Positions 7,341 to 54,293 of a DNA stretch of 64,000 nucleotides are shown one piece after another. The first letter of the stretch is position 1; each line of letters starts with the position of its first letter. The position numbers and the translations under genes are program-made. The notes under the pieces were generated by a model. That model made no database searches. It was not told where the DNA came from and saw nothing but the letters and a program-made list of their open reading frames with translations. Source of the stretch: Paenibacillus terricola (GTDB taxonomy: Bacteria > Bacillota > Bacilli > Paenibacillales > Paenibacillaceae); NCBI RefSeq assembly GCF_014779765.1, contig NZ_JACXZA010000002.1:744001-808000 (forward strand). The letters are read 5' to 3'.

Positions 7341-7347
7341 CACTATT

Positions 7348-9869: not shown

Positions 9870-9908
9870 GCATGATGCTTAGTTCTGCGATACGGGGGTG
9901 TGAATCTA

Positions 9909-10814: not shown

Positions 10815-10819
10815 GCGAC

Positions 10820-10845
10820 AAAAAGCCGCAGCTGCGCGGCTTTTT
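10820..10845. terminator. Bidirectional intrinsic terminator
   Basis: Stem AAAAAGCCGC / GCGGCTTTTT with a 6-base loop, A-run and T-run on both sides, between the AraC gene and the convergent lipoprotein gene. Confidence 0.92.
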
Positions 10846-10848
10846 GTT

Positions 10849-11838
10849 CTAGTTTGGATTCAATCGCAATCCGTTAAGCAACGCCAGGAATTGCTCTTTG
10901 GTTGAAGCTTCTTTGTCATCTCTCGAGAATTCCAGTACGAAGATGGCTTTGTCTTGAATCGGGATAACGGCGTAATAAACATCATGAGTGCCTTCAATGC
11001 CAGAAGCGGCAGTGCCGTTATCTGCATCCAGCGTGTATAGTTTAGCGCTCCCGAGCGGAATGTCGATATCCTCCACATTCGTAACTTCGCTGTGGTTTGG
11101 TTTATAGAACTTGAAGTCAAAGTCGACTGCGTACACGTATGTAGTAACCTCTCCTACAGTGGCGCTGCTTTGATCATGGATTGACACGTCTCCCCGGTCG
11201 CTTGCACGGAGCGACCATCCTTGCGGTGCGGTTAACTCCAAGTTGGAAGCATTGTATATCGGAGTAGAAGGAATCTGTGTGCCGACAGAGCCGTCTCCAT
11301 CGTTAATATAGATGTTCTCGACATTACGGGGTTCGGAGTCAGCCAGACCGTCCAACAGACTGATCGACCATTGATGGGTGTTCATCTCGTAGGAGATGTT
11401 CATGACGATCGGCACTTCCATCTCTGATTTACTGCCAATCGCAATTGCAAGTGCTTGCTCTGCCATTAGCTTTGTTTCATTGGAGACTGGTATAGAGATG
11501 GTGTCAATACGATTGGCTCCTCCTATACCTGGATAGGAAGCATCTATATCCCCGAATAGAATCGCTCTTACTCGCTGTCCGACCGAGAAAGACTTACCGA
11601 GTGATCCGATCCATAACGCATCCTTATTTCCGTTAACAGAAATATTGGTTTCCGATGCAACAAGAATGCGATCCGTCGTCATTTTGGTCACATAGCCGGT
11701 GTAAACGGTGGTTTCATTGGAATGAGGACTGTCAGCTGTCTGCGATTCTTCTACAACAACAGGTTGCACAGGTGTCGTACAAGCCGTCATACTTAGTAAA
11801 CTTAAGATGAGGATGGCTGAGCATACAATTCGATTCAT
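10849..11838 (-). CDS. Lipoprotein with N-terminal DUF3221-like domain
   Basis: About 329 residues. Signal peptide with lipobox MTAC, then a DUF3221-type beta-barrel segment (GYVTKMTTDRILVAS...SFSVGQRVRAILFGDIDASYPG), a family of unknown function in Bacillales lipoproteins. The C-terminal half is a separate domain (APQGWSLRASDRGDVSIHD... FVLEFSRDDKEASTKEQF) resembling PsbP-like outer-membrane stress domains by pattern only. ATG 11838 with AGAGG 7 bases upstream is preferred over the GTG at 11844. Co-transcribed with the gene starting at 12352. Confidence 0.7.
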   Translation of the reverse strand: MNRIVCSAILILSLLSMTACTTPVQPVVVEESQTADSPHSNETTVYTGYVTKMTTDRILVASETNISVNGNKDALWIGSLGKSFSVGQRVRAILFGDIDASYPGIGGANRIDTISIPVSNETKLMAEQALAIAIGSKSEMEVPIVMNISYEMNTHQWSISLLDGLADSEPRNVENIYINDGDGSVGTQIPSTPIYNASNLELTAPQGWSLRASDRGDVSIHDQSSATVGEVTTYVYAVDFDFKFYKPNHSEVTNVEDIDIPLGSAKLYTLDADNGTAASGIEGTHDVYYAVIPIQDKAIFVLEFSRDDKEASTKEQFLALLNGLRLNPN

Positions 11839-11854
11839 ACACAACCTCTTTCTA

Positions 11855-12352
11855 TTAGAAGAATATTTCCAACGTGTAGAGTCGTCGTTGATCTACGTTA
11901 AGAACAGCGACAATGTAGCTTCCATCCTCCTGTTTACGCGTGAAGTATAAGGAGTCTTGATTGAATTCCACCGGATACTTGTTGAACAGCTTCCCATATC
12001 GTACATGACCTTGATATAGCTGTTGAATCTGTTCCTTGTACCCATTGATGAGTGCATGTATCCCATCGCTATTGTCCCCTACCTTGTTCCAAATGTGCAG
12101 CTGCTCAAGCTGTTGAACAGCTTCTTCATCATAATCGCTTATGTAGTAATAATCCGGATCCCGCCCACCGTTATAAAAGACGCTCTTCACCTTCTCGGCT
12201 GGAGGCGTATCGAATCCCCAATTCAATCTCCAAGATAGAGCTTGGCTGGATGCCACCATCTTATGATATTGATTGTATCCAATTCCAATGCCACCACACA
12301 GGACAGCTAATGAAATTAGAATTATCCACCATTTCCGACGAATGGTTATCAC
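11855..12352 (-). CDS. Membrane-anchored hypothetical protein
   Basis: A 165-residue protein with one N-terminal membrane segment (KWWIILISLAVLCGGIGIG) and an extracytoplasmic domain with many Tyr and Gln (YYYISDYDEEAVQQLEQLHIW). It is not recognised. It lies ten bases upstream of the DUF3221-like lipoprotein gene and is probably in the same operon. The start is uncertain: GTG 12352 has AGAAGAG directly against it with almost no spacing. Confidence 0.55.
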   Translation of the reverse strand: MITIRRKWWIILISLAVLCGGIGIGYNQYHKMVASSQALSWRLNWGFDTPPAEKVKSVFYNGGRDPDYYYISDYDEEAVQQLEQLHIWNKVGDNSDGIHALINGYKEQIQQLYQGHVRYGKLFNKYPVEFNQDSLYFTRKQEDGSYIVAVLNVDQRRLYTLEIFF

Positions 12353-12387
12353 CTCTTCTACCTCTATATGGAACCAATGTTTATAAT

Positions 12388-12431
12388 AAACAATAAACGC
12401 GTAGTCATCAATTGACTCGCGTTTATTGTTT
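12388..12431. repeat. Long AT-rich inverted repeat (hairpin)
   Basis: Perfect 14-bp arms AAACAATAAACGCG / CGCGTTTATTGTTT separated by 16 bases. It touches the end of the MFS remnant and is about 36 bases upstream of the gene starting at 12352. It may be a terminator for the remnant or a small palindromic element. Confidence 0.6.
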
Positions 12432-12681
12432 ATTTATTCGGATTTCTTCTTATTTGTATCCCATATAATGCGAGACAAATAAGCATCTTGGCCAAACAAA
12501 GAACAAACATTGCAATGAATGCATTGGAATAGCTGTCCGTCACATCAACGATCCAACCCGTCAATGCTGGACCTAACCCCGCAACTGTTATTAGAAACGC
12601 TTGTTTACGCTTCTTCATCAGTTCGGATACTGATGGATGCTCATTCGCTGCAATATTAGCTGCAACGCAAGCATTACGAGG
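12430..12681 (-). pseudogene. Remnant of an MFS transporter C-terminus
   Basis: The reading frame is open only from 12681 to 12430 (about 83 codons). Its end has two hydrophobic segments with GLGPALTGWIVDVTDSYSNAF, the pattern of the last helices of major-facilitator transporters of the CynX/NarK type. The other ten helices are absent upstream, where there is no continuing frame. A later part starting at 12618 could be translated, but I regard it as a decayed gene. Confidence 0.6.
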
Positions 12682-12794
12682 TCAGCTAGTCGTTACGGTC
12701 TTCTAATCTTCTTGGTCATATATACGCATCACTCCTTATGTATCCACCATTAGACGTCAGACATCTGTTGTCTAGTTAGTGATTACGACAATAG

Positions 12795-12824
12795 AAAAGC
12801 AGCCGACCATAGAACTCGACTGCT
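12795..12824 (-). terminator. Intrinsic terminator
   Basis: Minus-strand stem AGCAGTCGA / TCGGCTGCT (one G-T pair) followed by TTTTC, at the end of the gene 12823-13398. Confidence 0.75.
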
Positions 12825-13398
12825 AACCTCTAATGATTCGTTCAATGGTTTGATCGAATGCGTGCCTCAACTGATGGAACGATACGACGTTTACATGTTG
12901 CAGAGCTTTCAGCTCCTTATGTATGAAGGTCGGCTCGTCATATAGCACAAGGATCGAAAGCTTATTGGACTGGAAGTGCGGTCTGAGCTTCGTGTACATT
13001 TCGTTGATCAGTGTGTTATCGATCAACGATTCAATCGCGTAATGTCCCCAATACCCGCCGAACCAGGCATTGAATGATTGCCAGCTCTCAACAAAACCAA
13101 GCTCCCCTTCTCGATCTGGCTTGAAGAGTCTTAAGTATACCTTCCTCTCCGTTTCTCCGACACCGTTATGGTCGCTTTGAGGATTCAATGCGATCTTACC
13201 CAACATGTCTTCCCACACTTCAGTAAAGACGTGCTCGAAATTGTCATCCGTAAGATGCCAATCATCACAGTTGAGATAAGGAAACTTGCTGTTTCGTTCG
13301 CTGCCTGTCTCCCTTTTGTTCAAAACCGCGTTTTGCACATAGATCAAGTAGTTCAATGCGTAGGAGGCCCTTAATTCAATCGTGAAGCTGCTATTCAT
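12823..13398 (-). CDS. Hypothetical protein, about 191 residues
   Basis: A soluble protein rich in Trp, Phe and Tyr (FVESWQSFNAWFGGYWGHYAIESL) with charged linkers. The last 60 residues (NKLSILVLYDEPTFIHKELKAL) look like a Rossmann-type strand-helix unit. I do not recognise a family. The ATG at 13398 is about ten bases from AAAGGA; ATG 13404 and an upstream start at 13425 are alternatives. It stands alone with its own terminator. Confidence 0.55.
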   Translation of the reverse strand: MNSSFTIELRASYALNYLIYVQNAVLNKRETGSERNSKFPYLNCDDWHLTDDNFEHVFTEVWEDMLGKIALNPQSDHNGVGETERKVYLRLFKPDREGELGFVESWQSFNAWFGGYWGHYAIESLIDNTLINEMYTKLRPHFQSNKLSILVLYDEPTFIHKELKALQHVNVVSFHQLRHAFDQTIERIIRG

Positions 13399-13486
13399 CA
13401 ACATCACTTCCTTTGAGATAAACAAGTCTACCCATATATATTACCATTTACACCCACTGCAACAAGTTCAATCCTCTTCGGCAAAA

Positions 13487-13517
13487 GAAAAAACAGCCGA
13501 TCCTCAGATCGACTGCT
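13487..13517 (-). terminator. Intrinsic terminator
   Basis: Minus-strand stem AGCAGTCGATC-TGAG-GATCGGCTGT followed by TTTTTC after the MTHFR-like gene. Confidence 0.85.
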
Positions 13518-13523
13518 TACTTA

Positions 13524-14468
13524 TTAGCTACTGATAATATGGACAAGATGCTTCTTATCGATCAGCGATTTAATGTCTTTAACCATCTGAATCGAGGCTT
13601 CGATCTCAACCTTGCGGGTAGACACGCTCTCTATGCTGCAGCCTACAGGAATGCCTTTCTCTAGACCGAATTCCAGCAGTTCTTCGAAAATTTTGTTCGT
13701 AAGCTGGATCGATTTATCAAGTACGTCCGTTGAATATTTCAATTCATTCTCCAGCCACCGCGGGATGCTGATGCCCAGCCACTTCATGAATTCGAGCGTC
13801 TTCGTCGAGCCGCATGGCGCGAGGTTGAATAAGACGGGAACCATCTCAATCTCAAGCTCATTACAGTAATGATAGTAATCGGACAAGAAGCTCTTCGATG
13901 CCTCGACGTTATAAGTAGCTTGTGAGACGAAGAAGCTGCATCCCTGTTTCATTTTGTTCACGACGCGTATATGTTCATCATGCTTCTTCGTGTGGCGCTC
14001 AGGAATAATAACGCCTCCGAAAGTAAGCTCTTCATTGTGCAGGTTGCTCAGTCTATAAGCGTCTGTCAGCTCAAGCGTTACCTGCTGCTGGCTCGAGGAG
14101 GAGCCGACGTATACACTGAAGCGGTCACAGTCTGTACCCTTCTTTAACCAATTTGTCAGCTCTGTTTCGGAATATTTGCCAACACAGCGGTAAATAATCT
14201 TCGGCACGTCAAGCTCATGTAGATATTGTTCGCTATAGGTTTCAGGGTCGAGCATCGCCATATAAGGGAACGGCCGCTCCTCGTTAATGCGATCAGACTC
14301 CTCCTGTACGTCGTACAAAATCAATGCATCTATATCAACCTTCTTCAGTCGTTCAACCTGCTTTTGCGAGATCTCCGTGATTTTCTCCGTCGTATTCGAC
14401 TGCTTGGGCGGAGTCATCCCGTATGTAATGATCCCTGCTTTCTTATTCTGAATTGATTCTCTAAACAT
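13524..14468 (-). CDS. Methylenetetrahydrofolate reductase-like protein
   Basis: A 314-residue cytoplasmic protein with the pattern of the MetF (beta/alpha)8 barrel in divergent form: IDALILYDVQEESDR near residue 50, the central segment LTFGGVIIPERHTKKHDEH and then MKQGCSFFVSQATYNVEAS, where the family has a Gln-containing strand (FITQ). MetF reduces methylenetetrahydrofolate to the methyl donor for methionine synthesis. It is the first full-length gene downstream of a cobalamin riboswitch, which fits a role next to methionine or corrinoid metabolism. The sequence is distant from canonical MetF, so a different substrate is possible. Confidence 0.7.
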   Translation of the reverse strand: MFRESIQNKKAGIITYGMTPPKQSNTTEKITEISQKQVERLKKVDIDALILYDVQEESDRINEERPFPYMAMLDPETYSEQYLHELDVPKIIYRCVGKYSETELTNWLKKGTDCDRFSVYVGSSSSQQQVTLELTDAYRLSNLHNEELTFGGVIIPERHTKKHDEHIRVVNKMKQGCSFFVSQATYNVEASKSFLSDYYHYCNELEIEMVPVLFNLAPCGSTKTLEFMKWLGISIPRWLENELKYSTDVLDKSIQLTNKIFEELLEFGLEKGIPVGCSIESVSTRKVEIEASIQMVKDIKSLIDKKHLVHIISS

Positions 14469-14643
14469 ATGATCCCATCCTCAGACGATTGTTAACACCA
14501 ACATGAATATTTATTCATCGAGCCCCATATATATTCGCACATTTTCTGATGAATTGCTATCCCTTATTTCAATAAAATGCAGCCGATTGCATCAGTATAC
14601 ATCGTACCATCGATTTTCTAAGCTGAAGTGCTCAACCAATAGC

Positions 14644-14817
14644 TTAGCGAAGCAATCTGCTCATTACTTCACTCCATCGATCCTGTGTGCTTAGGGATGT
14701 GTATGCCAAATGATGCAGCAGGCTCGAGTAACCCTCTGCATTAAGGTTCGTAATAACTGCAGCCATCAACTGCTCATCCTCTAAATGGGATAACATGTGA
14801 ATCAATTCATGTCGCAT
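14644..14817 (-). CDS. Small ORF of 57 residues downstream of the cobalamin riboswitch
   Basis: Starts at ATG 14817 with GGAGGG seven bases upstream, so translation is likely. Sequence begins MRHELIHMLSHLEDEQLMAA and is amphipathic helical without membrane segment; it carries several His (HELIHMLSHL, LHHLAY) but no known motif. It lies about 70 bases after the riboswitch-associated terminator and 175 bases before the MTHFR-like gene. It may be a real small protein or the start of an otherwise lost gene. Confidence 0.5.
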   Translation of the reverse strand: MRHELIHMLSHLEDEQLMAAVITNLNAEGYSSLLHHLAYTSLSTQDRWSEVMSRLLR

Positions 14818-14888
14818 CGATGGTCCCTCCCCCATATCCGCTGCGTATTCCTAATTAACTTTTACTTTCTGTATCTGTGAACAACAAT

Positions 14889-14936
14889 AAAAGGCGTCTT
14901 CCCAAGGCCTGAATAAGCAAAGGGAAAGACGCCTTC
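14889..14936 (-). terminator. Intrinsic terminator downstream of the cobalamin riboswitch
   Basis: Minus-strand stem AAGGCGTCTTTCCC / GGGAAGACGCCTT followed by TTATTGTTG. Its position just after the riboswitch suggests it is the expression platform, forming when cobalamin is bound. Confidence 0.8.
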
Positions 14937-14989
14937 ATAATCGTAAATTATGAGAGTTCATCTAACACCTTCCTATCTCCCGTAGGTAC

Positions 14990-15205
14990 AGCAGTGTCGT
15001 CAGAACAGGCAGGTCTCCTGGCTCCGGAATCTTCACATGGCAGCGGCCTTCCCGATCGAATTCGATCAGTGGCGCTCGCTTACTGCCTTGCTCCTCCGTT
15101 ACAGTGGCGGGACCGCGTCGGTTTTTCACCGGACTTCCCTATTAAGTCTAATTGACATCCTTCATGCCGATTAGACACCTGTTCCCGATTGTATGTAATT
15201 GGGGC
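14990..15205 (-). ncRNA. Cobalamin (B12) riboswitch
   Basis: The minus strand contains the conserved B12-box GCCAGGAGACCTGCC (plus 15008-15022) and, upstream of it, the core GGTGAAAAACCGACGCGG followed by CCCGCCACTGTAA, plus the 5' GGGAACAGGTG segment near 15180-15195. These are the class-defining elements of adenosyl/aquo-cobalamin riboswitches. The terminator at 14889-14936 follows, giving a standard transcriptional off-switch. Boundaries are approximate. The genes under it are a 57-residue ORF and an MTHFR-like gene, not an obvious corrinoid transporter or MetE. Confidence 0.95.
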
Positions 15206-27512: not shown

Positions 27513-27748
27513 TTCCCCTCTCATCGGATTAGACAACAAAAAAAAGCATTTGGAATGTTATCCAAATACTTTGCCCAGGCGAACGGCCGTTACGATGCGT
27601 GCTCCCTCGTGGTTCACCACGTTCTCGCCAGTTACACACATCCAATATTTACCTCAATTATATTCGTTTCACCCTTCGAAGACAAGCCATTTACTGCGGT
27701 TTGACCAGGAACCGGAGTATCTTCAAAATTTTTTCTGATGTCTGTATA

Positions 27749-43023: not shown

Positions 43024-43159
43024 TTTTACACACTCCTGGCTGCAATGTATGTTTAATATTCGAATGTAAACATTGATTATCCTCCTGCATTTGACAAAAT
43101 ACAACAAAAAATGCAGCTGCAATGTGCAACTGCTCCATTCCATTATTTACGGTCACCGT

Positions 43160-44989
43160 TCAAGTAATTCGAAACGGGTTATACCCTGCTCCTTTACCCG
43201 AAGGCATCGCCCCTGGCACCCCATCAGCCTCTAGCAGCGGACGAATGATCAGCTTCGAAGGCCATGTCTTACTCTTGAACAGTACTTGCAGCAGCACATT
43301 GCGATCATTCTCTGGAATATCGATGCGCTCTACCGCATGTCGTAGCTGCTTCCCAGTAATTGACCATAACTGCTTCTCGGGAATGTCGTAGGACTCTGCC
43401 ATCGCCTCTATAATTGCAGCCAGGTTAACCTGAGTTCCCAGTGATTGAATATAGAATATCAATTTCTCAATCGTTTCGTTATACAGGCTGTTGGAATAGC
43501 CCGGTCGGATATGATAACAGGGGTCTTCGATTCCATGCTTGTCCAGGTAAGGCTGGTGAAGCCGCACAGAATCGTGATCTCTTAACATGAGGCCCGCAAC
43601 TTGTTTATCTCTCATCACGACACAGCAGTTTTGTCCATGAATCTCAGGTACAACGCCTACCTTGAACAATCTCATCGTTATGTCGTAGAATGCTGCTGCC
43701 AGCTCCTCATAGAAGCGAACTGCTTCATCCCCCGTAGGACGTTCACCATTAATCGCAGTCAGCAGATGCTCACCATTTAATGTAACGCCCAGAGAGGCCA
43801 TTGGAATGATTCGGTATCGCTCATCCAGCAGCTCTGAAGGATACATCCTCACTTGCGCGGCTAGATGCCGAGGATGGTCATCGAACAGCCCCATATCACT
43901 TGGGAGGTAGCCCCACCAATGCTTCTCTTCACATAAGAAAACACGTCCCTGTAACGTATCATCACATGCGATAGCATGTCGCAGCATTCGCTCGCCGGCG
44001 AGACCATTAAGCAGTTTAACGACAGGTAAGTATCGAGCAGCGCCGAGCGACAATACGCTTATAGGAAGCTTCAGCATCATTCTCGATTGCTGCACTCGCG
44101 CAAAGGAACGAACGGATGAAGTTGCGGACCACTCCCCTGCTTGTGTCTCCAGTACAACAATTGTTCCAGCTTCAATCTCATAGTTGAAGTAAGGTATGAT
44201 TTGGTGCTTCATCTGCCAGGGATGAACCGGCAGAAGCGTATGTGTGCGAGTCGAAATCCCTTTGCGCTCGAGCTCTGAATCGAGTAACGCCCTTACCGTA
44301 CTATCCAGCAGATCGAGACAGCTATACGAATCCTCCCGGCACCCACGTGCTATCGATTCATTCGATATAGCCACCCAATGGAGCGATGTTGGATTTCCGA
44401 ACTCTGCCATATAGGTCTTGTAATCCTGCTCTGAGAACCCAATCTTGGCCTTGGCCAGCGGATGAAACGGTCGATCTCGAAGCGATGCGAGCCGTTCTGC
44501 TGTAACAAACCAGTCGTATGAAGTGCTAGGTACTTCTTCAAACAGATCAACAGCGTGTGTAAGACTAAGACTTAGCTGCCAGATGGCTGTCTCTAGCCCC
44601 TTCATGAAATCTGCAACACCAGGATGCGCGTAGGCTTCCGCAGTTAACGAATGCGCTAGCACAAGCTGGCAAACCTCCATACAAGAGTCGACGATTGTAT
44701 AACCGAGCGTCCCTTTCTTAAGGATTGGGGTATCAATTGCCCATTGGATACCTTGCCTGTAACTAGGAACGATCAGGAAGCATATTTCACCGATATAGAC
44801 TGTAGCATTGTCAGGCGCATCGGGGTACATATCGAGTACAGCGCTTGGCGCTGCTTCCAGCCTGCAGGTCGTCTCTTCATTCATGACGAAGAATTGCTCT
44901 GCTAGAAAAGCATCCATGAGCTCCCTACATACACGGCGTTCAGCTATCACATAGTTTGGTGTTTGTTCTACTTCGAGATCGATGCGCAA
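43160..44989 (-). CDS. IucA/IucC siderophore synthetase 1 (last gene of operon)
   Basis: A 609-residue NIS synthetase that adenylates a carboxylate and condenses it with an amine. The nucleotide-binding motif reads RPFHPLAKAKIGF (about 173-185), with Arg where the family usually has GH, followed by HPWQMKHQI. SSVRSFARVQQSRMMLKLPIS and VVPEIHGQNCCVVMRDKQVAGLMLRDHD follow, and NPLYNE-like ends are replaced by YSNSLYNE. TTG 44989 has GAGGAGGG 6 bases upstream and the ORF overlaps the decarboxylase end by 22 bases. Amine and acid substrates cannot be set from sequence. Confidence 0.9.
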   Translation of the reverse strand: MRIDLEVEQTPNYVIAERRVCRELMDAFLAEQFFVMNEETTCRLEAAPSAVLDMYPDAPDNATVYIGEICFLIVPSYRQGIQWAIDTPILKKGTLGYTIVDSCMEVCQLVLAHSLTAEAYAHPGVADFMKGLETAIWQLSLSLTHAVDLFEEVPSTSYDWFVTAERLASLRDRPFHPLAKAKIGFSEQDYKTYMAEFGNPTSLHWVAISNESIARGCREDSYSCLDLLDSTVRALLDSELERKGISTRTHTLLPVHPWQMKHQIIPYFNYEIEAGTIVVLETQAGEWSATSSVRSFARVQQSRMMLKLPISVLSLGAARYLPVVKLLNGLAGERMLRHAIACDDTLQGRVFLCEEKHWWGYLPSDMGLFDDHPRHLAAQVRMYPSELLDERYRIIPMASLGVTLNGEHLLTAINGERPTGDEAVRFYEELAAAFYDITMRLFKVGVVPEIHGQNCCVVMRDKQVAGLMLRDHDSVRLHQPYLDKHGIEDPCYHIRPGYSNSLYNETIEKLIFYIQSLGTQVNLAAIIEAMAESYDIPEKQLWSITGKQLRHAVERIDIPENDRNVLLQVLFKSKTWPSKLIIRPLLEADGVPGAMPSGKGAGYNPFRIT

Positions 44990-46200
44990 GGGATTCCCTC
45001 CTCTGTGAGATAGTAGAATGTTGGATGCGGATGTCCGAGAAAATCATGATGGGATATTGTCCAGCAATAGGCACCCGATTTCACGAATACAAGGACATCA
45101 CCAACCTGCAGTCGAGGCACCTGAGCATCGGTATGCATGCGGTCCTTCGGTGTACACAGCTCACCTACGATTGTCACATTCGAATCAACAACCATGGGCT
45201 TGGCCCACGAATACTGCCATTCCCGCTCAGTCTGAACAACCCGAAACGGATGATCATGCCCCCATGAAGCCGGCAATCGATTGTGATGTGTGCCACCTCG
45301 AATGACGGCAAACCATTGCTCATGCGACAGTTTCATATCGATAACCTCTGTGACGTAATAGCCATGATCAGCCACAATGAATCGCCCTGGCTCGAAGAAG
45401 ACCTCTGTGTCTCCCAATCGATTCCATTCCTCGCTTTGCTTCAACAACCTGGTAAAGAGCGGCCAATCAAAGCCCGGTGAACCGTCATAAGTGACGCCAA
45501 ATCCTCCGCCTGCATTAATGACGCTAACCTCGATGTCGTATTGAGACTCCCACTCTTCAACCTTACGTACGTAATAACTGACCATCTCCGCATGCAGCTC
45601 TGCATTTGTGTTATTCGAGAGGGAATGAAAATGAAACCCACACAATTTCACATGCGTGTTGCTGTTCTCCCGTAAGATCGAGATGGCTTCTTCGACCAAT
45701 GTCTCATCAAGTCCAAACGGACTTGGACCTCCACCCATCCGTATCTTTGTCTGCGGCAAATCCGCTGTTCTCAAATTAATGCGCAGCAATACTTGCACGG
45801 TGCGTTTACGATATTTGGCCAGTTCGATAAGCTTACGCAGCTCGAGTAAACTCTCCACATGAAGATAAGTCACATTGTTCAAGATCGCTTGATCCAGCTC
45901 GGCATCCTTCTTCCCAGGTCCGCCGAACAGAATCGGAACGGTATGTGAAACGTCTCTTACTTTAAGCAGCTCACCGATCGACGCCACCTCGAACCCGCTG
46001 ACCAGCGGAAGCAGCGCCAGAATGATTCGTTTATCTGGATTTGCTTTGATTGCGTAGAATAACGAGCTGTGCGCGGGAAGCTTATCCAACATCGATCGAA
46101 CATGACGCTGAATGCCATCTAGATCATACACATAGGCACACACAGGTTCCTGACTCTCGCGCTGCCAGCTGGCGATCCATTCTTGAAGCTGCTCCATCAT
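44968..46200 (-). CDS. SbnH/PvsE-like fold-III PLP decarboxylase
   Basis: A 410-residue decarboxylase of the ornithine/diaminopimelate decarboxylase fold III type. PLP Lys 52 is in FYAIKANPDK; VINAGGGFG and FEPGRFIVADHGYYV bind the cofactor; Cys 379 in SGAYCWTISHHDFLGHP is the expected substrate-side residue. In staphyloferrin B synthesis SbnH decarboxylates a citryl-diaminopropionate intermediate; PvsE plays the like role in vibrioferrin. Start ATG 46200 overlaps the end of the SbnG-like gene by 4 bases. Confidence 0.9.
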   Translation of the reverse strand: MMEQLQEWIASWQRESQEPVCAYVYDLDGIQRHVRSMLDKLPAHSSLFYAIKANPDKRIILALLPLVSGFEVASIGELLKVRDVSHTVPILFGGPGKKDAELDQAILNNVTYLHVESLLELRKLIELAKYRKRTVQVLLRINLRTADLPQTKIRMGGGPSPFGLDETLVEEAISILRENSNTHVKLCGFHFHSLSNNTNAELHAEMVSYYVRKVEEWESQYDIEVSVINAGGGFGVTYDGSPGFDWPLFTRLLKQSEEWNRLGDTEVFFEPGRFIVADHGYYVTEVIDMKLSHEQWFAVIRGGTHHNRLPASWGHDHPFRVVQTEREWQYSWAKPMVVDSNVTIVGELCTPKDRMHTDAQVPRLQVGDVLVFVKSGAYCWTISHHDFLGHPHPTFYYLTEEGIPCASISK

Positions 46201-46976
46201 GATCTGACCCCCAGCGCTTGTCGATATTCCTTCTGCTTATTCCAATAGGCGCGGAAGGCTGTATTACGATCGTCGCCCAATACGAATATTTGAACGCCGC
46301 GCTCCGCCCACAGAAGGTGATCTTCCATCCTTCTTGATACAGCGGCATACGGGATGCCTTGCTGAATCGACTCCTTATGCACGTGATCTAACAGCTGCTG
46401 CACTTCCGGATGATCGGTCTGCCATGGCACGGATAGCGATTGCGACAGATCCGCAGCGCCTTCTAGAACGAAGCTGACTTGCGGAATTGACACGATATCT
46501 CTGATCCTCTCCGCACCTTCGATGCTCTCGATCATCGGGATGATCATCACTTCCCGGTTGGCCTCCTCGATGTAGTTGGAGAGAGAATTTTTGGCGAAAA
46601 TACCCGGTCTTCCGCTATTCAAGCTTCTATTCCCGAGTGGATGATAAAATGCATAACGAACCGCTTCCTCAACCTGGTCTCTACGCTCGACATGAGGGAT
46701 AACAATCCCTTGAGCGCCGCTGTCTAGAAACTTCGTAATCTCCATCCGGTTAACGCTGGATATTCGAACGAGCGGCGTCATATCCAGGAGCTCCGCGGCA
46801 CGAATGAGCTCCTCGACTGTCTCGACATTCGTAGAGGCATGCTCGAAGTCGATAATCACGAAGTCATATTCCGCATGGCCGATCATCTCAATAATGATTG
46901 GATTCGGGATGGAGACGAATAATCCGAATACCGATTTTCGTCTAGCAATTTTCTCCTTCAGCTTATTCTTTCTCAT
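46197..46976 (-). CDS. SbnG-like citrate synthase (HpcH/HpaI aldolase fold)
   Basis: A 259-residue (beta/alpha)8 class II aldolase. FGLFVSIPNPIIIEM, VIIDFEHASTNVETVEELIRAA and MIIPMIESIEGAERIRDIVSIP match the metal-binding HpcH/HpaI family and the SbnG arrangement in which this fold makes citrate from oxaloacetate and acetyl-CoA for siderophore use. ATG 46976 overlaps the IucA/IucC 2 stop by 4 bases (ATGA), a translational coupling. Role as dedicated citrate supplier is inferred from cluster and homology. Confidence 0.9.
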   Translation of the reverse strand: MRKNKLKEKIARRKSVFGLFVSIPNPIIIEMIGHAEYDFVIIDFEHASTNVETVEELIRAAELLDMTPLVRISSVNRMEITKFLDSGAQGIVIPHVERRDQVEEAVRYAFYHPLGNRSLNSGRPGIFAKNSLSNYIEEANREVMIIPMIESIEGAERIRDIVSIPQVSFVLEGAADLSQSLSVPWQTDHPEVQQLLDHVHKESIQQGIPYAAVSRRMEDHLLWAERGVQIFVLGDDRNTAFRAYWNKQKEYRQALGVRS

Positions 46977-48745
46977 CTCGTAACACCTGCAGCAAGACGC
47001 AGCGGGTTAGGTGCGGTACGGAAATACAGCTCGCTATCGCCATAAATTCTACGTTTCGTCATCTCTTCAATCCGTCCATCACCCGAGAACAAGTCGAATA
47101 GCTCGAATCGTTCTTGGTACTGCGGATGCTCCTGTTGGTATCTGAGAATCGTATCCGAGCATTTGCTCCAGAACTGTTGCTCACCTAGACCACACTTCTC
47201 AAGCGTGAAGCACAGCTCCGTCATGCAGATGAAGAAGAAAGCATCATAGGTATAGTCACGTACTTCGGACACTTGGTCAGTCTGAAGAAACGAGTAGCGA
47301 TTGAACTTGCGATGAGTTTCTGGTTCAGGATTCAGCACTGGCGCCCATTCTGGATGGAGCAATTGACTTGGCACATAACGCACGCTATCGTGCAGATCTT
47401 TGACAATAATCCGCATTGGCAGCTCATTCTCGAGTACAAGAATAATATTCTGAGCATGCGATTCGAGGGCGATCCCATGCGCATAGAGCAGATGAATGAT
47501 TGGCAGTACAACGGAACGAATGAGAGCATCGCTCCATCTCTCGATGCCATGCTGGTCGATCGCAGACTGAATGAATGATTCTCCGTTCTGCTGCGTCAGC
47601 GTTACGGCATTCAATGGCCAAGCGGTCTCATTGGAATCGAGATGCAGCGAGACATTTTCACGAAAAATGGCTCCTAGCGTACCGTAAGCCGAACCATATG
47701 CGATGGATGACAAGTTCTGATAACGCAACGAAAGTCCCATCGTTTCTCGAAGCACCTGGAATCTAAGCTTCGTGAGCAGCGAGTCGTTCCGAATAATGCG
47801 CTGCAGCCAGTCGCTGATCAGTGGCGCATTCTGCGTCGTATGATGAGCCAGAATACGGCTGGTCGACGTATTGGTGATGCTTAACGCCAGCTTGATATAG
47901 GAGGCATCTTGCTTGTCACGGCGAGATAGCGTACGAATCGACTGCTGTGCACGGTAGGACGAGCGCGATCCCCCTAACACAATGATGTCTTTATTCGCTA
48001 ACTGCTCTACGAACAACGTCGGAATTCGGTCCTCCATCTGCCATGGGTGTACAGGCATGAATACATAATGCTCAGCCTCGCAGCCAGAGATGGTTAGAAT
48101 GTCCTTGAACGTCTGGCGATCTTCATCGGTCAGATGATCGGCATACAGTTCCTCTGAGGTGACCCCTCTCGATACGGAAACATCAATCAGCCATTCATGA
48201 ACCGCGATCCACTGCAGGGCAATCTTTTGATTGAACTCAGGCCCGTATGCGAAATTATCCATCAACGAGAAACCAAGTCTTGATTTGTAGCTGGGGTGGT
48301 ACGGATGACCTTCCGCCATATAGCTTTCCAGTGCATCATAATGACGGTCAGCGATCGGGATTCGTTCAGCTTCATGCAGCTTGGACTGATGGTCCTTCGC
48401 TAACGTCTCGAATAGTTCGCTCACGAACTGCGGAACATATGCCCCATTCAATCGGTTCACGATGACCTCTTCGACGAAACGATAAAGATCAACGCTCGGC
48501 TTGTCTTCTCTTCGAATGGAATGCTTCTCGACTTTTACACGACCGAATGAAGCTTTACGCTGTGCCTTACAGGTGTAACGAATCGTATCTTCGTTTGAAG
48601 CTCTACCCTCGAACGTCCACGTCAGCCCCTCTTCTGCAGCACTAATAATCCCTTCGAACAGCAAGGCCTCCAGCGTCTGGCGCATGATTCTCTCCATCAC
48701 ATCATCCAGCAGCATGCTCTCTTCGGCTCTAATTCGTTGTTCCAC
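46973..48745 (-). CDS. IucA/IucC siderophore synthetase 2
   Basis: A 590-residue NIS synthetase with the full motif GHPYHPSYKSRLGF at about residues 146-159, PVHPWQMEDRI, SIRTLSRRDKQDASYIKLALSITNTSTSRIL, ALESHAQNIILVLENELPMRIIVKDLHDSVRY and the typical C-terminus with a ferric-reductase-like segment ending LYFRTAPNPL. This end and pattern recall SbnF/AlcC-type synthetases. GTG 48745 has GGGAG 8 bases upstream. Overlaps synthetase 3 by 17 bases. Confidence 0.92.
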   Translation of the reverse strand: MEQRIRAEESMLLDDVMERIMRQTLEALLFEGIISAAEEGLTWTFEGRASNEDTIRYTCKAQRKASFGRVKVEKHSIRREDKPSVDLYRFVEEVIVNRLNGAYVPQFVSELFETLAKDHQSKLHEAERIPIADRHYDALESYMAEGHPYHPSYKSRLGFSLMDNFAYGPEFNQKIALQWIAVHEWLIDVSVSRGVTSEELYADHLTDEDRQTFKDILTISGCEAEHYVFMPVHPWQMEDRIPTLFVEQLANKDIIVLGGSRSSYRAQQSIRTLSRRDKQDASYIKLALSITNTSTSRILAHHTTQNAPLISDWLQRIIRNDSLLTKLRFQVLRETMGLSLRYQNLSSIAYGSAYGTLGAIFRENVSLHLDSNETAWPLNAVTLTQQNGESFIQSAIDQHGIERWSDALIRSVVLPIIHLLYAHGIALESHAQNIILVLENELPMRIIVKDLHDSVRYVPSQLLHPEWAPVLNPEPETHRKFNRYSFLQTDQVSEVRDYTYDAFFFICMTELCFTLEKCGLGEQQFWSKCSDTILRYQQEHPQYQERFELFDLFSGDGRIEEMTKRRIYGDSELYFRTAPNPLRLAAGVTR

Positions 48746-50417
48746 TCGTTAATCTCCCTACTTTCTTCATCACATTATCTATGGGCGTATAAGCAGGCGT
48801 CTCGCTATGCCCTCCAAGGCAGCTGATCATATTCTTCTTCGCTAGGAAGGCATCAGCAGTCAGTAAATGTTGAATATACTCATTGCTAGTGGCCTCGTAT
48901 TCTTGCTCAAGCAGATGCCGTACGATCCGCCAGTACACCATCTCATCCATCCCACTGTCTCTAGCAATCGCATGGATAAGAGAACCTAGATGATTCACCA
49001 TGAAATAATAATCCGTACGCGCCCAACACTGTTCCTTGTCATAGAAAAGGGGGCTCATGCCTGCTGCTTCGACGGCAATCTCTCGATTAACGCTAACTCC
49101 CTCCAAATCTCGAATAATAAAGGTATGCGGCACGCCATTCTTCAACGTAAGCAGCGTATTCTGCAGATGCGCTTCGAAATGGATGCCATGCTCTTGCGCC
49201 GCTCGCACTATGGGCAATAGCGAGATCTGCAGGTACTGTTCAAACCACTCTGTAATCGGAATACTCTGATCGATTAATGCAAACAGCCGGCAAGAATCAC
49301 ATTGAATCGGCGCTTCTATCAGACTGGACATGACGAATGTACATGTCACATCGAACTCTACCTTGCGATAGGCTACAGTCAACATTTTGGCAATATTCTC
49401 GCCTTTGAAACAACAACCCTCCACCCCTTCTTCATACGCGATTCGGGTATTAGAATCATTGGCGAAGCAGTCTCGTCCGTACAAATAACGAGCGGCATCC
49501 ATCGTTCTGCGCATTTGTTCCCAGCTATTCGTTCTTCTTAGATTCGTGATCTGGATGTTAAGTGGAAGCTTGATATTGTAGGCCATCTCAGGGATGTATA
49601 CCGTTCTTACCGATGAGGTTGGATAGGCTAGCGGACCGCAACTGCCCAGCAGAATGATTTTCTTATCTCGAATATAGTCTTTAATGGCCTTAATAGTCTG
49701 GACATGCTCGTACTGCCATGGATGTACCGGAAGCAACTGATAGATCTCACGCTTCTCTCCCAACACTTGTCGCGCATGCCCTTCAATCTCTTCTGGCCAT
49801 TCAAGCTGTAAGCTAAAGTTGATCCATTCCTGATGAAATACGTCTCGGTGAATTGCCATGTAGCACAACTGGAAGGAAGCATGAAGCTCTGGACTGTACT
49901 TCGTTGTTTCTATCTCTCTGAACCCGGCCGTATTCTTGGCGTATGGATGAAAAGGATGACCGTAGATAAGGGATTGCTCAGAGGACAAATAGTCGGTTAC
50001 CGAGTGATGTGCGGACTGCGTCCAATACAGCTCGATTTTGTCGCAGCTGTTCTCCACCTTTTCGATAAAATCCTGAATCAGCTCTAGCGAAATAGATGGA
50101 TCACGATGGCGCAGCTCGGTAATCATCCATTGAAGAAGTGTCTTGAACTGCAACTCTTCCTTGTCCTCGGTCAGGAGCTGTTCGTACTCATGCTCCCCAC
50201 TTACCGAATAATAGTTCAGCTTGCCAGTTAAGACGGCGCAACTATGCGGGAACGAAATCACAAATGTGTGGTCTTCGGTATTAATCTCTATACCACTGCT
50301 TCCACGTTCAGCTGCAAGCTCCCGAATATAGCAGTTTAGTAATGTTTTACACGTCTGAGCATTGGCCTGTTCCCGGCCTTTCGTCTCCTCCTTGGTCCAC
50401 ATGGGTGTCAGTCGCAC
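48729..50417 (-). CDS. IucA/IucC siderophore synthetase 3 (SbnC-like)
   Basis: A 562-residue NIS synthetase. YGHPFHPYAKNTAGF lies near 152-166; then LPVHPWQYEHVQTI, YPTSSVRTVYIPEMAYNIKLPLNIQITNLRRTN and HFEAHLQNTLLTLKNGVPHTFIIRDLEGVS, closest by eye to the SbnC group. The start (GTG 50417 or ATG 50402) lies 56-71 bases inside the MFS gene, with no alternative start before the conserved region. Overlaps the next gene by 17 bases. Confidence 0.9.
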   Translation of the reverse strand: MRLTPMWTKEETKGREQANAQTCKTLLNCYIRELAAERGSSGIEINTEDHTFVISFPHSCAVLTGKLNYYSVSGEHEYEQLLTEDKEELQFKTLLQWMITELRHRDPSISLELIQDFIEKVENSCDKIELYWTQSAHHSVTDYLSSEQSLIYGHPFHPYAKNTAGFREIETTKYSPELHASFQLCYMAIHRDVFHQEWINFSLQLEWPEEIEGHARQVLGEKREIYQLLPVHPWQYEHVQTIKAIKDYIRDKKIILLGSCGPLAYPTSSVRTVYIPEMAYNIKLPLNIQITNLRRTNSWEQMRRTMDAARYLYGRDCFANDSNTRIAYEEGVEGCCFKGENIAKMLTVAYRKVEFDVTCTFVMSSLIEAPIQCDSCRLFALIDQSIPITEWFEQYLQISLLPIVRAAQEHGIHFEAHLQNTLLTLKNGVPHTFIIRDLEGVSVNREIAVEAAGMSPLFYDKEQCWARTDYYFMVNHLGSLIHAIARDSGMDEMVYWRIVRHLLEQEYEATSNEYIQHLLTADAFLAKKNMISCLGGHSETPAYTPIDNVMKKVGRLTSGTTN

Positions 50418-51813
50418 CTGCTTTCTTATGATTAATGAATACGACGAGCGGAAGCGTTAGCGACATCAGTACCCCTAGTACGATGCACTCTTCTTGCAGC
50501 GCCGCCCACTTGGCTTGTCCCGCGCCCATCCCACTGCTTGCCAACATTGTCCACCGGATGTCGTAGTAGGCAGCAAGCAGCATGACAGCGAAGGAAGAAG
50601 CCAACCGCTGCAGCGTATTGGACAATGCCGATCCTTCGTGCATATCCTCCTCTGGCAGCGCTTGCAGTCCTATGGCCGTCATCGTCATATCGGACAAGCC
50701 ATTGCCAATTCCTCGTAGTGCCATGAGAACAATAACGAATACAAGCGAAACGCTCGTTGATACGAATGCAAATGACAATACAGATAACGCTACCATTCCA
50801 ATCCCATAAGCAATAAATCGCAGCGACTTACCGGCATCGAGCCAGCGTCCGCCAATCCATACGAATAAGCTCGTACATACAGCCGTTGGGATAAACAAAG
50901 CGCCGGACGCGGATGGAGATAGATGAAGTCCTTCTTGAAAAATAAGCGGCATGACGAATATTACGCCGAACATCACCGCATCCTGCACCGTCGAGATGAG
51001 AAGCGAAACCGTGAACAAGCGATTAAGCCGCAGCAGCTTATACCGGATCAAGGGCTCTTCTTTGCCATTCTCATGTTGAACGAAACGGATCACAGCCAGG
51101 ATTCCAACTCCGAATAACACGCCTGTCTGCCATCCAGGAATCGCTGAATTCGATGCGAATTGGATGGCTAGACTGAGCGATGCAACACTGAGCATGAGCG
51201 GCAGCAGCCCTTGCAGATGGATCGTTTTGCGCTTGGCAGGCTCATAGGATTGAATCTGACGGCAGCATAGTAAGAGCGATAAAAGCGCTAAAGGCACATT
51301 CATCCAGAACAGAATCTTCAGCTCGCCGAATTGCATAACAAAACCGCCCAGCGTTGGACCGACCGCAGGTGCAATCGTCAGCAGCATGCCCCAAGCCCCA
51401 ACTACCTGTCCCCTCTTTCCTTGTCCGTAATAATCGAACAACAGAACAAGTGACACTGGAATCATTAACCCTGCTGCAACGCCATGCATGACGCGAACAA
51501 GCAGAATCACCTCTACATGCTGATAAAACAATCCGCCCACAATCGAGAACAGTCCGTACAGCCCGAGCCCAAGTATATACGTCCGTTTGCGGTCGAGCCG
51601 ATCAACGACAATAGAGGTTAGCGGCATCGTTATCGTCATAGCCAGCATATACAACGTAATAATCCAGCCGCCAAGTGCCGTCGAAATGCCATACGTGGTT
51701 ACAAAGCTTGGGAGCAGCGTATTAAAGGCACTGTTCGTCAGCACCAACGAGAATGCCCCGATGAGAATAGCTAGTAAGACGGAATGTTTTCTCGCATATG
51801 CTGCAATCAGCAT
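50347..51813 (-). CDS. MFS exporter of the siderophore operon (DHA2-like)
   Basis: About 488 residues with around 14 membrane segments, major-facilitator fold: the motif-A loop SIVVDRLDRKRTYILGLG and the central motif GAWGMLLTIAPAVGPTLGG of the antiporter family 14-helix group. It plausibly exports the siderophore (compare SbnD). ATG 51813 overlaps the aminotransferase stop by 7 bases; an upstream open frame to 51969 is not used. Its end overlaps the start of IucA/IucC 3 by at least 56 bases. Confidence 0.9.
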   Translation of the reverse strand: MLIAAYARKHSVLLAILIGAFSLVLTNSAFNTLLPSFVTTYGISTALGGWIITLYMLAMTITMPLTSIVVDRLDRKRTYILGLGLYGLFSIVGGLFYQHVEVILLVRVMHGVAAGLMIPVSLVLLFDYYGQGKRGQVVGAWGMLLTIAPAVGPTLGGFVMQFGELKILFWMNVPLALLSLLLCCRQIQSYEPAKRKTIHLQGLLPLMLSVASLSLAIQFASNSAIPGWQTGVLFGVGILAVIRFVQHENGKEEPLIRYKLLRLNRLFTVSLLISTVQDAVMFGVIFVMPLIFQEGLHLSPSASGALFIPTAVCTSLFVWIGGRWLDAGKSLRFIAYGIGMVALSVLSFAFVSTSVSLVFVIVLMALRGIGNGLSDMTMTAIGLQALPEEDMHEGSALSNTLQRLASSFAVMLLAAYYDIRWTMLASSGMGAGQAKWAALQEECIVLGVLMSLTLPLVVFINHKKAGATDTHVDQGGDERPGTGQCSDV

Positions 51814-53165
51814 GTGCTTGTAATCATCTCGACGGCTTCTATTACCGATTTCTCGAAAATAAACAGTACCTCTGCTGCCTCTTGCTCCGTAATCGTTAGA
51901 GGTGGAAGAAACCGCATAACGGCGGAACGGCGCCCGCCTAGTTCGATAATTAAGCCGTTCTGGAAGCATCGCTCCTGGATCAAGCCAGCGAGCTCGCCAC
52001 TCTGTGGGAAATGACCCAATCGATCTTTCTGTCCGCGAGGATCGACGATTTCCACTCCGATCATCAGACCTCTGCCCCGGACATCGCCGATTTCTTGTAC
52101 ACGAGCTTGCAACCGGCGAAGCGAATGGAAGAATTGGCTGCTGCGCTCGCGTACATTCTCGAGTACATCATTCGATTGCAAATATCGCAGTGTGGCAAGT
52201 CCGGTCGCCATCCCTAATTGATTGCCGCGGAATGTACCCGTATGCGCACCTGGTTTCCATTGGTCAAGCTCTTCTTTGTAGATCACGACCGACATTGGCA
52301 GGCTGCCGCCAATTGCCTTAGAGCAGACGATAACATCTGGAATAATGCCGGCATGTTCGAACGAGAACATCGTGCCGGTTCTGCCGATTCCTGTTTGAAC
52401 CTCGTCGATTATAAGCGGGATGCCTCGTTCAGCCGTAATGCGTCGGATTTCACGCAGCCATTCAATTGGCGCAGGAATAGCGCCCCCTTCGCCTTGAACG
52501 GTCTCGACGATTAAGCAGCAAGGGGCTGCGATGCCGCTCTCGCAATCATCCAGCAGCTGTTCGATATATTGCGCACTGATCTGGGCGGTCTTCCCTTCAC
52601 CAACTCCGAACGGGCAGCGATATTCATACGGGAACGGCAGGAAGTGAACATCCGGAAGCAGGCTCTGGAGATGCTGCTTCTTGCTCAGGTTGCCGCTCAT
52701 CGCCATCGTCGCTTGAGTCGAACCATGATAGCCGCCTTGGAAGGCTAGAATCGACTTGCCCTTTGTTGCATTTTTGACAAGCTTAATCGCTGCTTCTACA
52801 GCATCCGCACCTGTCGGACCGCAGAATTGAATTTTGGATGAGGAGCGAAGCGGTTCTGGCAGCATCGTGAAAATTTCTTGCATGAAATCGAGTTTCAGCG
52901 GAGTCGCAAGATCAAGTGTATGTAAGGGGATTTGCTTAACCAGTGTATCCTGAATAGCAGCAACGACTACATCGTGGTTATGGCCTAATGCAAGCGTGCC
53001 CGCACCGCATAAGCAGTCGTAATACGACTTACCGTCTGTGTCCGTGACGATAATGCCTCTAGCTCGATCAATCACGAGGGGAAAATGCCGGGGATAGGCT
53101 TGCGCATTGGATTCTTTGTCCTTCTGAAGCTGCAGATAGGCTTCCATGTCTTGTGCTGCAATCAT
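51807..53165 (-). CDS. Class III aminotransferase, probable 2,4-diaminobutyrate aminotransferase
   Basis: A 452-residue PLP fold-I enzyme. PLP Lys 283 in VIVCSKAIGGSLPMSVV; phosphate contact FCGPTGADAVEAAIKL, AFQGGYHGSTQATMAMSG and LIIDEVQTGIGRTGTMF. The whole matches diaminobutyrate--2-oxoglutarate aminotransferases (EctB/RhbA/DatA type), which convert aspartate semialdehyde to L-2,4-diaminobutyrate. This would supply the diamine in place of SbnA/SbnB that make diaminopropionate in staphyloferrin B. Starts 14 bases downstream of the ATP-grasp gene. Confidence 0.9.
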   Translation of the reverse strand: MIAAQDMEAYLQLQKDKESNAQAYPRHFPLVIDRARGIIVTDTDGKSYYDCLCGAGTLALGHNHDVVVAAIQDTLVKQIPLHTLDLATPLKLDFMQEIFTMLPEPLRSSSKIQFCGPTGADAVEAAIKLVKNATKGKSILAFQGGYHGSTQATMAMSGNLSKKQHLQSLLPDVHFLPFPYEYRCPFGVGEGKTAQISAQYIEQLLDDCESGIAAPCCLIVETVQGEGGAIPAPIEWLREIRRITAERGIPLIIDEVQTGIGRTGTMFSFEHAGIIPDVIVCSKAIGGSLPMSVVIYKEELDQWKPGAHTGTFRGNQLGMATGLATLRYLQSNDVLENVRERSSQFFHSLRRLQARVQEIGDVRGRGLMIGVEIVDPRGQKDRLGHFPQSGELAGLIQERCFQNGLIIELGGRRSAVMRFLPPLTITEQEAAEVLFIFEKSVIEAVEMITSTC

Positions 53166-53179
53166 GATTAACGCCCCTT

Positions 53180-54175
53180 CTAGTCTTGGAATAAATAGTT
53201 CAAATAGACGGTGATAACGTCCGAAGCTGCTTCGTTGATAAATAAATGAGGATCCACCAAGTCTGGCAATGCATTCACTTCAAGAATTCCCCCATTGTCC
53301 TCATCCAGTGGAAGGTCGATACGTTTGCAACGAATATCAACTCCGGCAACATCAAGCTGGAGCGCTTGCGCAGCTCTGATCGCTGCTTCGGCATTGCTAC
53401 TGCAAATATCACGAGTACGATCCGCTATAACTTCGCTAATGCTGCTCGCTGCTGCATTATCGAGCGTATATAGTTCTACTTGCTCTCCATAAGCTAGGAT
53501 GTCATGAGGCGTTCGACTCTGCTGGTGCAGATGATACTGTATATCGTATGATTCCATATCTACCAGCTGATAGGAGCTAGCCAAGTCAGATGAATTGCGC
53601 CTCAGCTGCTCATCATTCATATTACGCGCCAGCTGCTCGATCGTGGAATAGCCATCCCCCACGATATAAGCCGGCCGATATTCGAGCACACCGACTACTT
53701 GATCTCCGATGACAAGCACCCGATAATCGTCCCCTTCCACGTACCGTTGGAGCATAATGCTTGAACTATGCTGGTGCACCCTCTGGATTGCTCGGGCTAG
53801 TTCAGCCTCATCACGGACCTTTAACGTAACGCCGATGCTGCGGTTTAAGTCCAGTGGTTTGACTGTAATGAGCTGATGCTTCAACAGAAACTGACGAGCC
53901 TCTTCACCCATGTCAGAGACGACGATTTCCTCGGGCACAGGGAGCTCTGCACGCCGCAGCAGCAGATTGGACGCTTGCTTGTGCTTAGCAAGCAATCCGG
54001 CCATCAGCGTCATTTTGTGCGATCGCGACTTGTTAATCACGATGGTCTTGCCTTTGTAAGATAACTCAAGAAAGTCTTCACATCCTGGCAGTAACAACTT
54101 ACAATCGATTCCTAGTTCCCTCGCTTTGCTCATAATGATGATGTTCTGCATGTTTTGAACCGGTTGCGGGTTCAA
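53180..54175 (-). CDS. ATP-grasp ligase, first gene of the siderophore operon
   Basis: A 331-residue carboxylate-amine ligase of ATP-grasp fold. LLLRRAELPVPEEIVV, ITVKPLDLNRSIGVTLKVRDE, ILQRYVEGDDYRVLVIGDQVVGVLEYRPA and the ending GILEVNALPDL resemble the ATP-grasp half of cyanophycin synthetase and glutamate-cysteine ligases. Vibrioferrin clusters contain a comparable ATP-grasp gene (pvsA). It could form an amide between an amino acid and a carboxylate. TTG 54175 has GGGAGGGAAGGAC upstream. Placed directly under the Fur box promoter. Confidence 0.88.
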   Translation of the reverse strand: MNPQPVQNMQNIIIMSKARELGIDCKLLLPGCEDFLELSYKGKTIVINKSRSHKMTLMAGLLAKHKQASNLLLRRAELPVPEEIVVSDMGEEARQFLLKHQLITVKPLDLNRSIGVTLKVRDEAELARAIQRVHQHSSSIMLQRYVEGDDYRVLVIGDQVVGVLEYRPAYIVGDGYSTIEQLARNMNDEQLRRNSSDLASSYQLVDMESYDIQYHLHQQSRTPHDILAYGEQVELYTLDNAAASSISEVIADRTRDICSSNAEAAIRAAQALQLDVAGVDIRCKRIDLPLDEDNGGILEVNALPDLVDPHLFINEAASDVITVYLNYLFQD

Positions 54176-54230
54176 GTCCTTCCCTCCCTGGCGACAAGGT
54201 TCTGAAGAATATTACCCTTGTCATGATGTT

Positions 54231-54293
54231 ATTGATAATGATTATCAATATTACTGCAAAACCAATAATAGGCGCACTGCCTTTAATTGTCAA
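54231..54293 (-). promoter_or_regulatory. Fur box and SigA promoter of the siderophore operon
   Basis: Plus 54231-54249 is a perfect 9-1-9 palindrome, ATTGATAATGATTATCAAT, of Fur type. On the minus strand TTGACA (plus 54288-54293) and TATTAT (plus 54265-54270) are 17 bases apart, just upstream of it, so Fur would cover the start of transcription. The rest of the gap to the catalase terminator (54294-54461) holds nothing I can name. Confidence 0.93.

Follow-up and report, generated by a model that had tools for sequence, protein, structure and literature searches.

The stretch of DNA analyzed here (hereafter, the window) comprises 64,000 nucleotides of the Paenibacillus terricola genome (contig NZ_JACXZA010000002.1, positions 744,001 to 808,000) and contains, on the minus strand, eight consecutive genes that apparently form a genuine, complete and iron-regulated operon for a siderophore made independently of nonribosomal peptide synthetases (NRPS-independent siderophore, NIS). 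The features of this operon, from its upstream end, are the following (MFS, major facilitator superfamily; PLP, pyridoxal phosphate; NIS1 to NIS3, the three synthetases of the IucA/IucC family):

54265..54293, minus strand: promoter-like site TTGACA-17-TATTAT, matching 11 of 12 consensus positions and the best of 20 in the region (consensus match only)
54233..54247, minus strand: Fur-type 7-1-7 box TGATAATCATTATCA, just downstream of the -10 hexamer
53180..54175, minus strand: gene 1, free-standing ATP-grasp ligase of 331 amino acids, related to the G domain of cyanophycin synthetase
51807..53165, minus strand: gene 2, diaminobutyrate--2-oxoglutarate aminotransferase, AcsF-like (NF005393, 706.5 bits, cut-off 671)
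50347..51813, minus strand: gene 3, MFS exporter, YhcA/SbnD-like (MFS_1 by Pfam; the open reading frame opens at 51969)
48729..50417, minus strand: gene 4, NIS1, IucA/IucC synthetase, SbnE-like by phylogeny (Pfam, NIS1 tree, three AcsD acceptor residues kept)
46973..48745, minus strand: gene 5, NIS2, IucA/IucC synthetase of the SbnF/AcsC type (SbnF model, 485.6 bits, cut-off 900)
46197..46976, minus strand: gene 6, SbnG/AcsB-like enzyme of the HpcH/HpaI fold, presumably citrate-forming (PDB entry 4tv5, E = 1.5e-62)
44968..46200, minus strand: gene 7, SbnH/AcsE-like PLP decarboxylase (PDB entry 6knh, E = 3.3e-102)
43160..44989, minus strand: gene 8, NIS3, IucA/IucC synthetase of the SbnC/AcsA type, presumably adding 2-oxoglutarate (SbnC model, 401.4 bits, cut-off 700; PDB entry 7cbb, E = 2e-81)
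43113..43133, minus strand: terminator-like hairpin after gene 8, with a 9-pair stem and a T-rich tail (consensus match only)

All eight open reading frames, from 54175 to 43160, are present where the initial annotation had placed them, adjacent genes overlap or are separated by no more than 15 bases, and Pfam agrees with the family name that had been given to each protein (RimK-type ATP-grasp, Aminotran_3 and MFS_1 for genes 1 to 3, IucA_IucC together with FhuF for the three synthetases, HpcH_HpaI for gene 6 and Orn/DAP decarboxylase for gene 7). The three matches to PF04183 in the 6.78-Mb genome are the three IucA/IucC genes of this operon. The PDB entries 4tv5, 6knh and 7cbb correspond to SbnG, SbnH and SbnC, respectively; the best match of NIS2 among PDB sequences is AsbB. 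Gene 2 has unbroken homologs in the ligase-containing loci described below, with 74-86% identity. The listed start of gene 3 at 51969 is probably too early and the true start would lie near 51813 because most homologs align from residue 53-60. With IucA/IucC synthetases, accessory enzymes, an exporter and a Fur-type box, the locus displays the general makeup of NIS operons, and the eight genes are likely to constitute one transcription unit that extends from the promoter-like site and the Fur-type box to the terminator-like hairpin.

The Fur box that had been reported ahead of the operon is indeed there: scored against the 7-1-7 consensus, the box upstream of gene 1 has no mismatches outside the center, and when the upstream sequence was shuffled 1000 times by mononucleotides, no box as good arose. 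A looser 16-base Fur pattern with up to three mismatches yields four matches in the window versus 1.26 expected, and as many were found in 6 of 100 shuffles. As classes, promoter-like sites (20 in the region versus 18.3 in shuffles) and terminator-like hairpins (13 versus 9.6) are little commoner than by chance.

The conservation of the gene set was traced by a scan with NIS2 over named genomes, in which the counts come from the best 80 of 378 loci by similarity to the window NIS2 and lean to close kin; among the 85 labelled loci, L061 and L122 are one contig, judging by its length, which leaves 84 that are distinct. All eight genes are found in unchanged order in 6 of 58 relatives. The ligase is encoded in 39 loci, namely 38 of the best 80 and the window, and in all of these its gene precedes that of the aminotransferase and is accompanied by the three NIS genes, SbnG and SbnH; these genes thus make up a single conserved unit. 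The exporter gene lies between those of the aminotransferase and NIS1 in 34 of the 39 loci and is not at that place in L086, L088, L089, L098 and L101. A Fur-type box with at most two mismatches is located upstream of the ligase gene in every one of these loci, within 300 bases in 35 and at 312-358 bases in the other four. In the class sample, the ligase (E <= 1e-40) is present in 19 of 398 genomes, that of P. terricola included; among the 14 of these that were inspected, the aminotransferase gene adjoins it in 11 (again with P. terricola), and in three there is no NIS, aminotransferase, SbnG or SbnH gene within about 8-10 kb. Searches of plasmids with tblastn recovered, among the matches listed, mostly cyanophycin and glutathione synthetases with the ligase as the query and mostly aerobactin genes with NIS3, which added one Thalassospira locus. 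One relative shows an incomplete version of the locus (L060, G018:C73:1-19000, 5934-15151): the uptake genes and FhuF are kept, NIS3 is split, and the region that begins with the ligase and takes in most of NIS2 is absent. This may be a decayed producer that perhaps still imports the siderophore or else an assembly fault in a 280-contig draft.

The ligase is the most distinctive component of the system. The ATP- and Mg-binding residues of the ATP-grasp fold are retained, K66, K106 and R152 in 39 of 39 sequences and D280, E299 and N301 in 38 of 38 (one gap). Cyanophycin synthetase CphA1 consists of N, G and M domains, whereas the ligase lacks N and M, and the CphA1 residues that bind aspartate and the primer arginine (R323, R458 and E215) are not kept, with R323 replaced by Y and R458 by T, I, S or V. 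The residues of the ATP site are thus intact, and the substrate residues are changed compared to cyanophycin synthetase; the score against the cyanophycin synthetase model NF010623 is 179.9 bits versus a cut-off of 877. Y166 (39 of 39), C283 and D305 (both 38 of 38, one gap) are invariant in the ligase, and all three differ in each of three stand-alone relatives with 38-42% identity (L154, 10399-11406; L155, 10805-11815; L156, 9820-10833). No NIS, aminotransferase, SbnG or SbnH gene lies within about 8-10 kb of these stand-alone genes, and a gene close to them looks like rsgA. The divergence of the ligase tracks that of NIS2 (Spearman 0.78, 37 loci). In one congener, a 38-residue stretch with 66% identity to the ligase contains a stop (G001:C8:191603-191716), and no NIS3 match was found there.

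The initial annotation had described an NIS operon of hybrid type, which is supported by the protein families, the gene order and the phylogeny of NIS1; its choice of staphyloferrin B as the comparison, however, missed achromobactin, even though the achromobactin cluster contains seven of the eight gene types, as given in passages of the published description (PMC3329529). On the staphyloferrin B side, NIS1 is of the SbnE type and the genes follow the sbnD-E-F-G-H order. The proposed use of diaminobutyrate as the diamino acid is borne out by the score of the aminotransferase above the NCBIfam NF005393 cut-off, which places a DAB (L-2,4-diaminobutyrate) aminotransferase in the operon, as in achromobactin systems. 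The other traits of staphyloferrin B are not seen: NIS3 and NIS2 remain below the NCBIfam SbnC and SbnF cut-offs (401.4 bits against 700 and 485.6 bits against 900), which belong to narrow 'exception' models, and the operon has no SbnA and SbnB to supply L-2,3-diaminopropionate (L-Dap). NIS1 is not of the AcsD type either. In a tree of 82 NIS1 proteins, a quick one with flagged long branches and an outgroup that is not clean, and which does not include Staphylococcus aureus SbnE, the window NIS1 groups with those of SbnA/SbnB-bearing loci and is separated by long, supported branches from the achromobactin-type NIS1 of Pseudomonas, Duganella and Thalassospira; the DLEGVS versus DYEGVK signature was also counted against an AcsD-type NIS1. 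A Brevibacillus locus (L139) is arranged similarly to sbn and encodes, in this order, SbnA, SbnB, NIS3, an open reading frame in the place of the exporter, NIS1, NIS2, SbnG and SbnH. The acceptor residues of AcsD, E442, R501 and K563 in passages on that enzyme (PMC3323832), are all kept in the window NIS1 and are the majority residues of every NIS1 group, the Acinetobacter set being variable, so that the acceptor of NIS1 is likely an alpha-amino acid. Because the gene types are achromobactin-like and the order and the NIS1 tree are staphyloferrin B-like, the cluster is a predicted DAB-supplied hybrid of staphyloferrin B-type assembly and achromobactin-type DAB supply.

The absence of SbnA and SbnB that had been noted holds for the operon but not for the genome, and their proposed replacement by the aminotransferase and the ATP-grasp enzyme does not extend to the latter, which is no substitute for SbnA/SbnB given that, in 20 of the 85 labelled loci, the aminotransferase is encoded but the ligase is not. 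An SbnA/SbnB-type pair is encoded elsewhere in the P. terricola genome, next to genes for an AMP-binding protein and an asparagine synthetase (L174, G000:C1:689000-703000, 6307-8290). No Fur-type box was found near this pair. The SbnA-type gene is present in all six genomes of the genus examined (that of P. terricola among them), whether or not they contain the operon, and a search with this gene alone gave no match at E <= 1e-70 in two of seven operon-containing genomes (G011 and G028). The pair was therefore rejected as the source of the precursor and is probably unrelated to the operon; it is possible that it makes a separate L-Dap product.

Taken together, these observations make it probable that the iron-repressed operon makes and exports a mixed citrate/2-oxoglutarate/DAB siderophore that is intermediate between staphyloferrin B and achromobactin. 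Each chemical step and the product itself are predicted here from the enzyme families. The aminotransferase would provide DAB (and 2-oxoglutarate) and the SbnG-like enzyme would provide citrate. NIS1 would then couple citrate with DAB or serine as the alpha-amino acid, after which the adduct would be decarboxylated by the SbnH-like enzyme, NIS2 would attach DAB to the other end and NIS3 would add 2-oxoglutarate. One more amide bond would come from the ATP-grasp ligase, which would activate a carboxylate for coupling to an amine, probably of cationic character. The product would be exported by the MFS protein, and the ferric complex would be taken up again through a binding protein, FecCD permeases, an ATPase and an FhuF-like reductase encoded on another contig. 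Several points weigh against this scheme. The 20 loci that have the aminotransferase but no ligase imply that a DAB siderophore as such does not require the ligase. In passages of the AcsD study, DAB was used barely above background (PMC3323832), and hence NIS1 could use serine. Furthermore, the SbnA/SbnB-type pair of the same genome could supply L-Dap, and in 3 of the 19 ligase-containing genomes of the class sample, the ligase is encoded away from NIS, aminotransferase, SbnG and SbnH genes.

A more specific version of this pathway can be put forward only tentatively, as somewhat less probable than its negation: the product would be an undescribed siderophore in which the CphA-type ligase adds an amide-linked, probably diamino, unit to the citrate-DAB-2-oxoglutarate scaffold, and the gain of the ligase would have made the RraA-family step that belongs to achromobactin-type pathways dispensable. 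Among the 49 loci of the Bacillales clade (window included), 39 have the ligase only, 10 have only an RraA-family gene, located after NIS3, and none has both or neither. No ligase ortholog was detected genome-wide in the 10 RraA genomes, three of which have 27-32% matches within longer proteins, and no siderophore-type RraA was detected genome-wide in the 21 of 38 ligase genomes that were searched, two of which have a relative with 30-31% identity. The P. terricola genome encodes a single RraA-like protein, in a different setting, and this protein did not match the siderophore-type RraA in BLASTP at 1e-4. The siderophore-associated RraA proteins (L076:15564-16181 and 33 other loci) have three conserved motifs in common, S..GH, ACWGE and TD; the T of the last presumably occupies the position of an arginine in other RraA-type aldolases. 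Within this sample, the exclusion between ligase and RraA has no exception, but the events behind it are few, with three changes on a 56-row tree (independent-pairs median p 0.25) and two on a careful 27-row tree. On the latter, the ligase-bearing Halalkalibacterium falls among the RraA loci and a topology in which the six RraA Bacillaceae form one group is rejected (approximately unbiased test, p-AU 0.016); on the tree of NIS1 only, Halalkalibacterium lies outside these six.

The same pattern of exclusion, including its genome-wide extent where searched, would be expected if the ATP-grasp enzyme and the RraA-family protein were alternative routes for one late or recycling step, with the same siderophore made in both lineages. 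This is unlikely: the ligase and an aldolase-fold protein have no evident chemistry in common, the two or three changes on the trees are few for such a claim, and outside the Bacillales clade, where an RraA-family gene is present in 24 of the 36 labelled loci, the remaining 12 have neither gene. A DAB homolog of staphyloferrin B without any additional building block, with the ATP-grasp enzyme taking over one of the NIS-catalyzed bonds, is an improbable product as well. It would fit the SbnD-E-F-G-H-like order and the SbnE-like NIS1, and the core enzymes of staphyloferrin B are listed in passages of the respective study as SbnC, SbnE, SbnF and SbnH (PMC3179956), but the ligase has all three NIS genes close by in each of the 39 loci, and therefore no bond is left without an enzyme. 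Least probable, and quite unlikely, is plain achromobactin, with its O-citryl-ethanolamine core and the ATP-grasp protein in a subsidiary function (for instance self-protection or the supply of a precursor), which agrees with the seven shared gene types (PMC3329529, in part) and the three AcsD acceptor residues kept in NIS1 but not with the SbnE-like side on which NIS1 falls, a gene order unlike acs, or the operon's lack of an RraA-family gene; the one RraA-like gene of the genome is the gene in a different setting, without a BLASTP match to the siderophore-type RraA, that is described above.

Around the 39 ligase loci, binding-protein or permease genes were detected upstream on the same strand in 26 and divergently in nine, with none in the stretch in the remaining four, the window among them. 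The ligase was considered as a part of the uptake unit and rejected in this role, given that a Fur-type box still precedes its gene where FhuF or uptake genes lie upstream. The expectation that the uptake genes of P. terricola lie elsewhere proved right, with no FecCD match in the window and a candidate set on contig C17 of the same genome (L170):

4922-5965 and 5962-6975: permeases, candidate uptake set
7059-8330: iron-siderophore binding protein fused to a copper-amine-oxidase N-terminal domain, with 73% identity to its counterpart in L100, the nearest relative
8368 (perfect) and 9313 (one mismatch): Fur-type boxes
9385-10203: ATPase, candidate uptake set
10263-11045: FhuF, 60% identity

These are likely the orthologous uptake genes for the siderophore of the operon, an assignment made on the identity to L100 since the genome contains further FecCD loci (12 matches in all). 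Elsewhere in the window, there are a cobalamin riboswitch (14991-15197) and a ZMP/ZTP riboswitch (27566-27645), the latter directly upstream of an AICARFT/IMPCHase-family gene.

The retention of the ligase in dozens of relatives suggests a siderophore that may not have been described yet. Among the matches listed in the open-licence literature, judged by titles, the beginnings of abstracts and passages, there is no description of the eight-gene set or its product; a passage of a Paenibacillus genome paper mentions an IucA/IucC-like siderophore cluster, the product of which is given as unknown (PMC11233627). If the proposed pathway is correct, a widespread group comprising Paenibacillus, Cohnella and some Bacillaceae would make a siderophore beyond the structures known to us, and a cyanophycin synthetase-type ligase would have been recruited into an NIS pathway. 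The reciprocal ligase/RraA pattern would also offer a handle on the RraA-family gene of achromobactin-type and baumannoferrin clusters, for which the passages on these clusters state no function. 'Menaquinone biosynthesis' is presumably an old name for RraA-like proteins, and it is under this name that Psyr_2595 of the achromobactin cluster is listed (PMC3329529, in part).

Among the known systems, vibrioferrin (pvsABCDE) resembles the operon in the presence of an ATP-grasp enzyme, PvsA, and its product consists of citrate, ethanolamine, alanine and 2-oxoglutarate, without DAB. The precedent is mentioned in a passage that cites the vibrioferrin paper (PMC4431377), and in another, PvsA is proposed to make a citrate ester, with the enzyme roles called untested (PMC5577590). 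The baumannoferrin cluster (bfn) of Acinetobacter, as far as the available passages describe it, shares an NIS synthetase annotated as AcsC and an MFS exporter but differs in having a monooxygenase, an acetyltransferase and the RraA-family bfnG, with no ATP-grasp gene named (PMC10483418). The staphyloferrin B cluster (sbnA-I) of S. aureus shares the exporter-NIS1-NIS2-SbnG-SbnH order and the SbnE-like NIS1, and has SbnA/SbnB where the window operon has the DAB aminotransferase; in the latter, NIS3 comes last and the ligase is added. The achromobactin cluster of P. syringae B728a, given in part of the source as acsF, acsD, acsE, yhcA, acsC, acsB, acsA, cbrABCD, Psyr_2594 and Psyr_2595 (PMC3329529), shares the DAB aminotransferase, the three NIS synthetases, the decarboxylase, the aldolase and the MFS exporter, and differs in gene order and in the side of the tree on which NIS1 falls, whereas the window operon has the additional ATP-grasp ligase and no RraA-family gene. 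What is new in the system predicted here is the union of staphyloferrin B-type assembly with achromobactin-type DAB supply, together with the added ligase.

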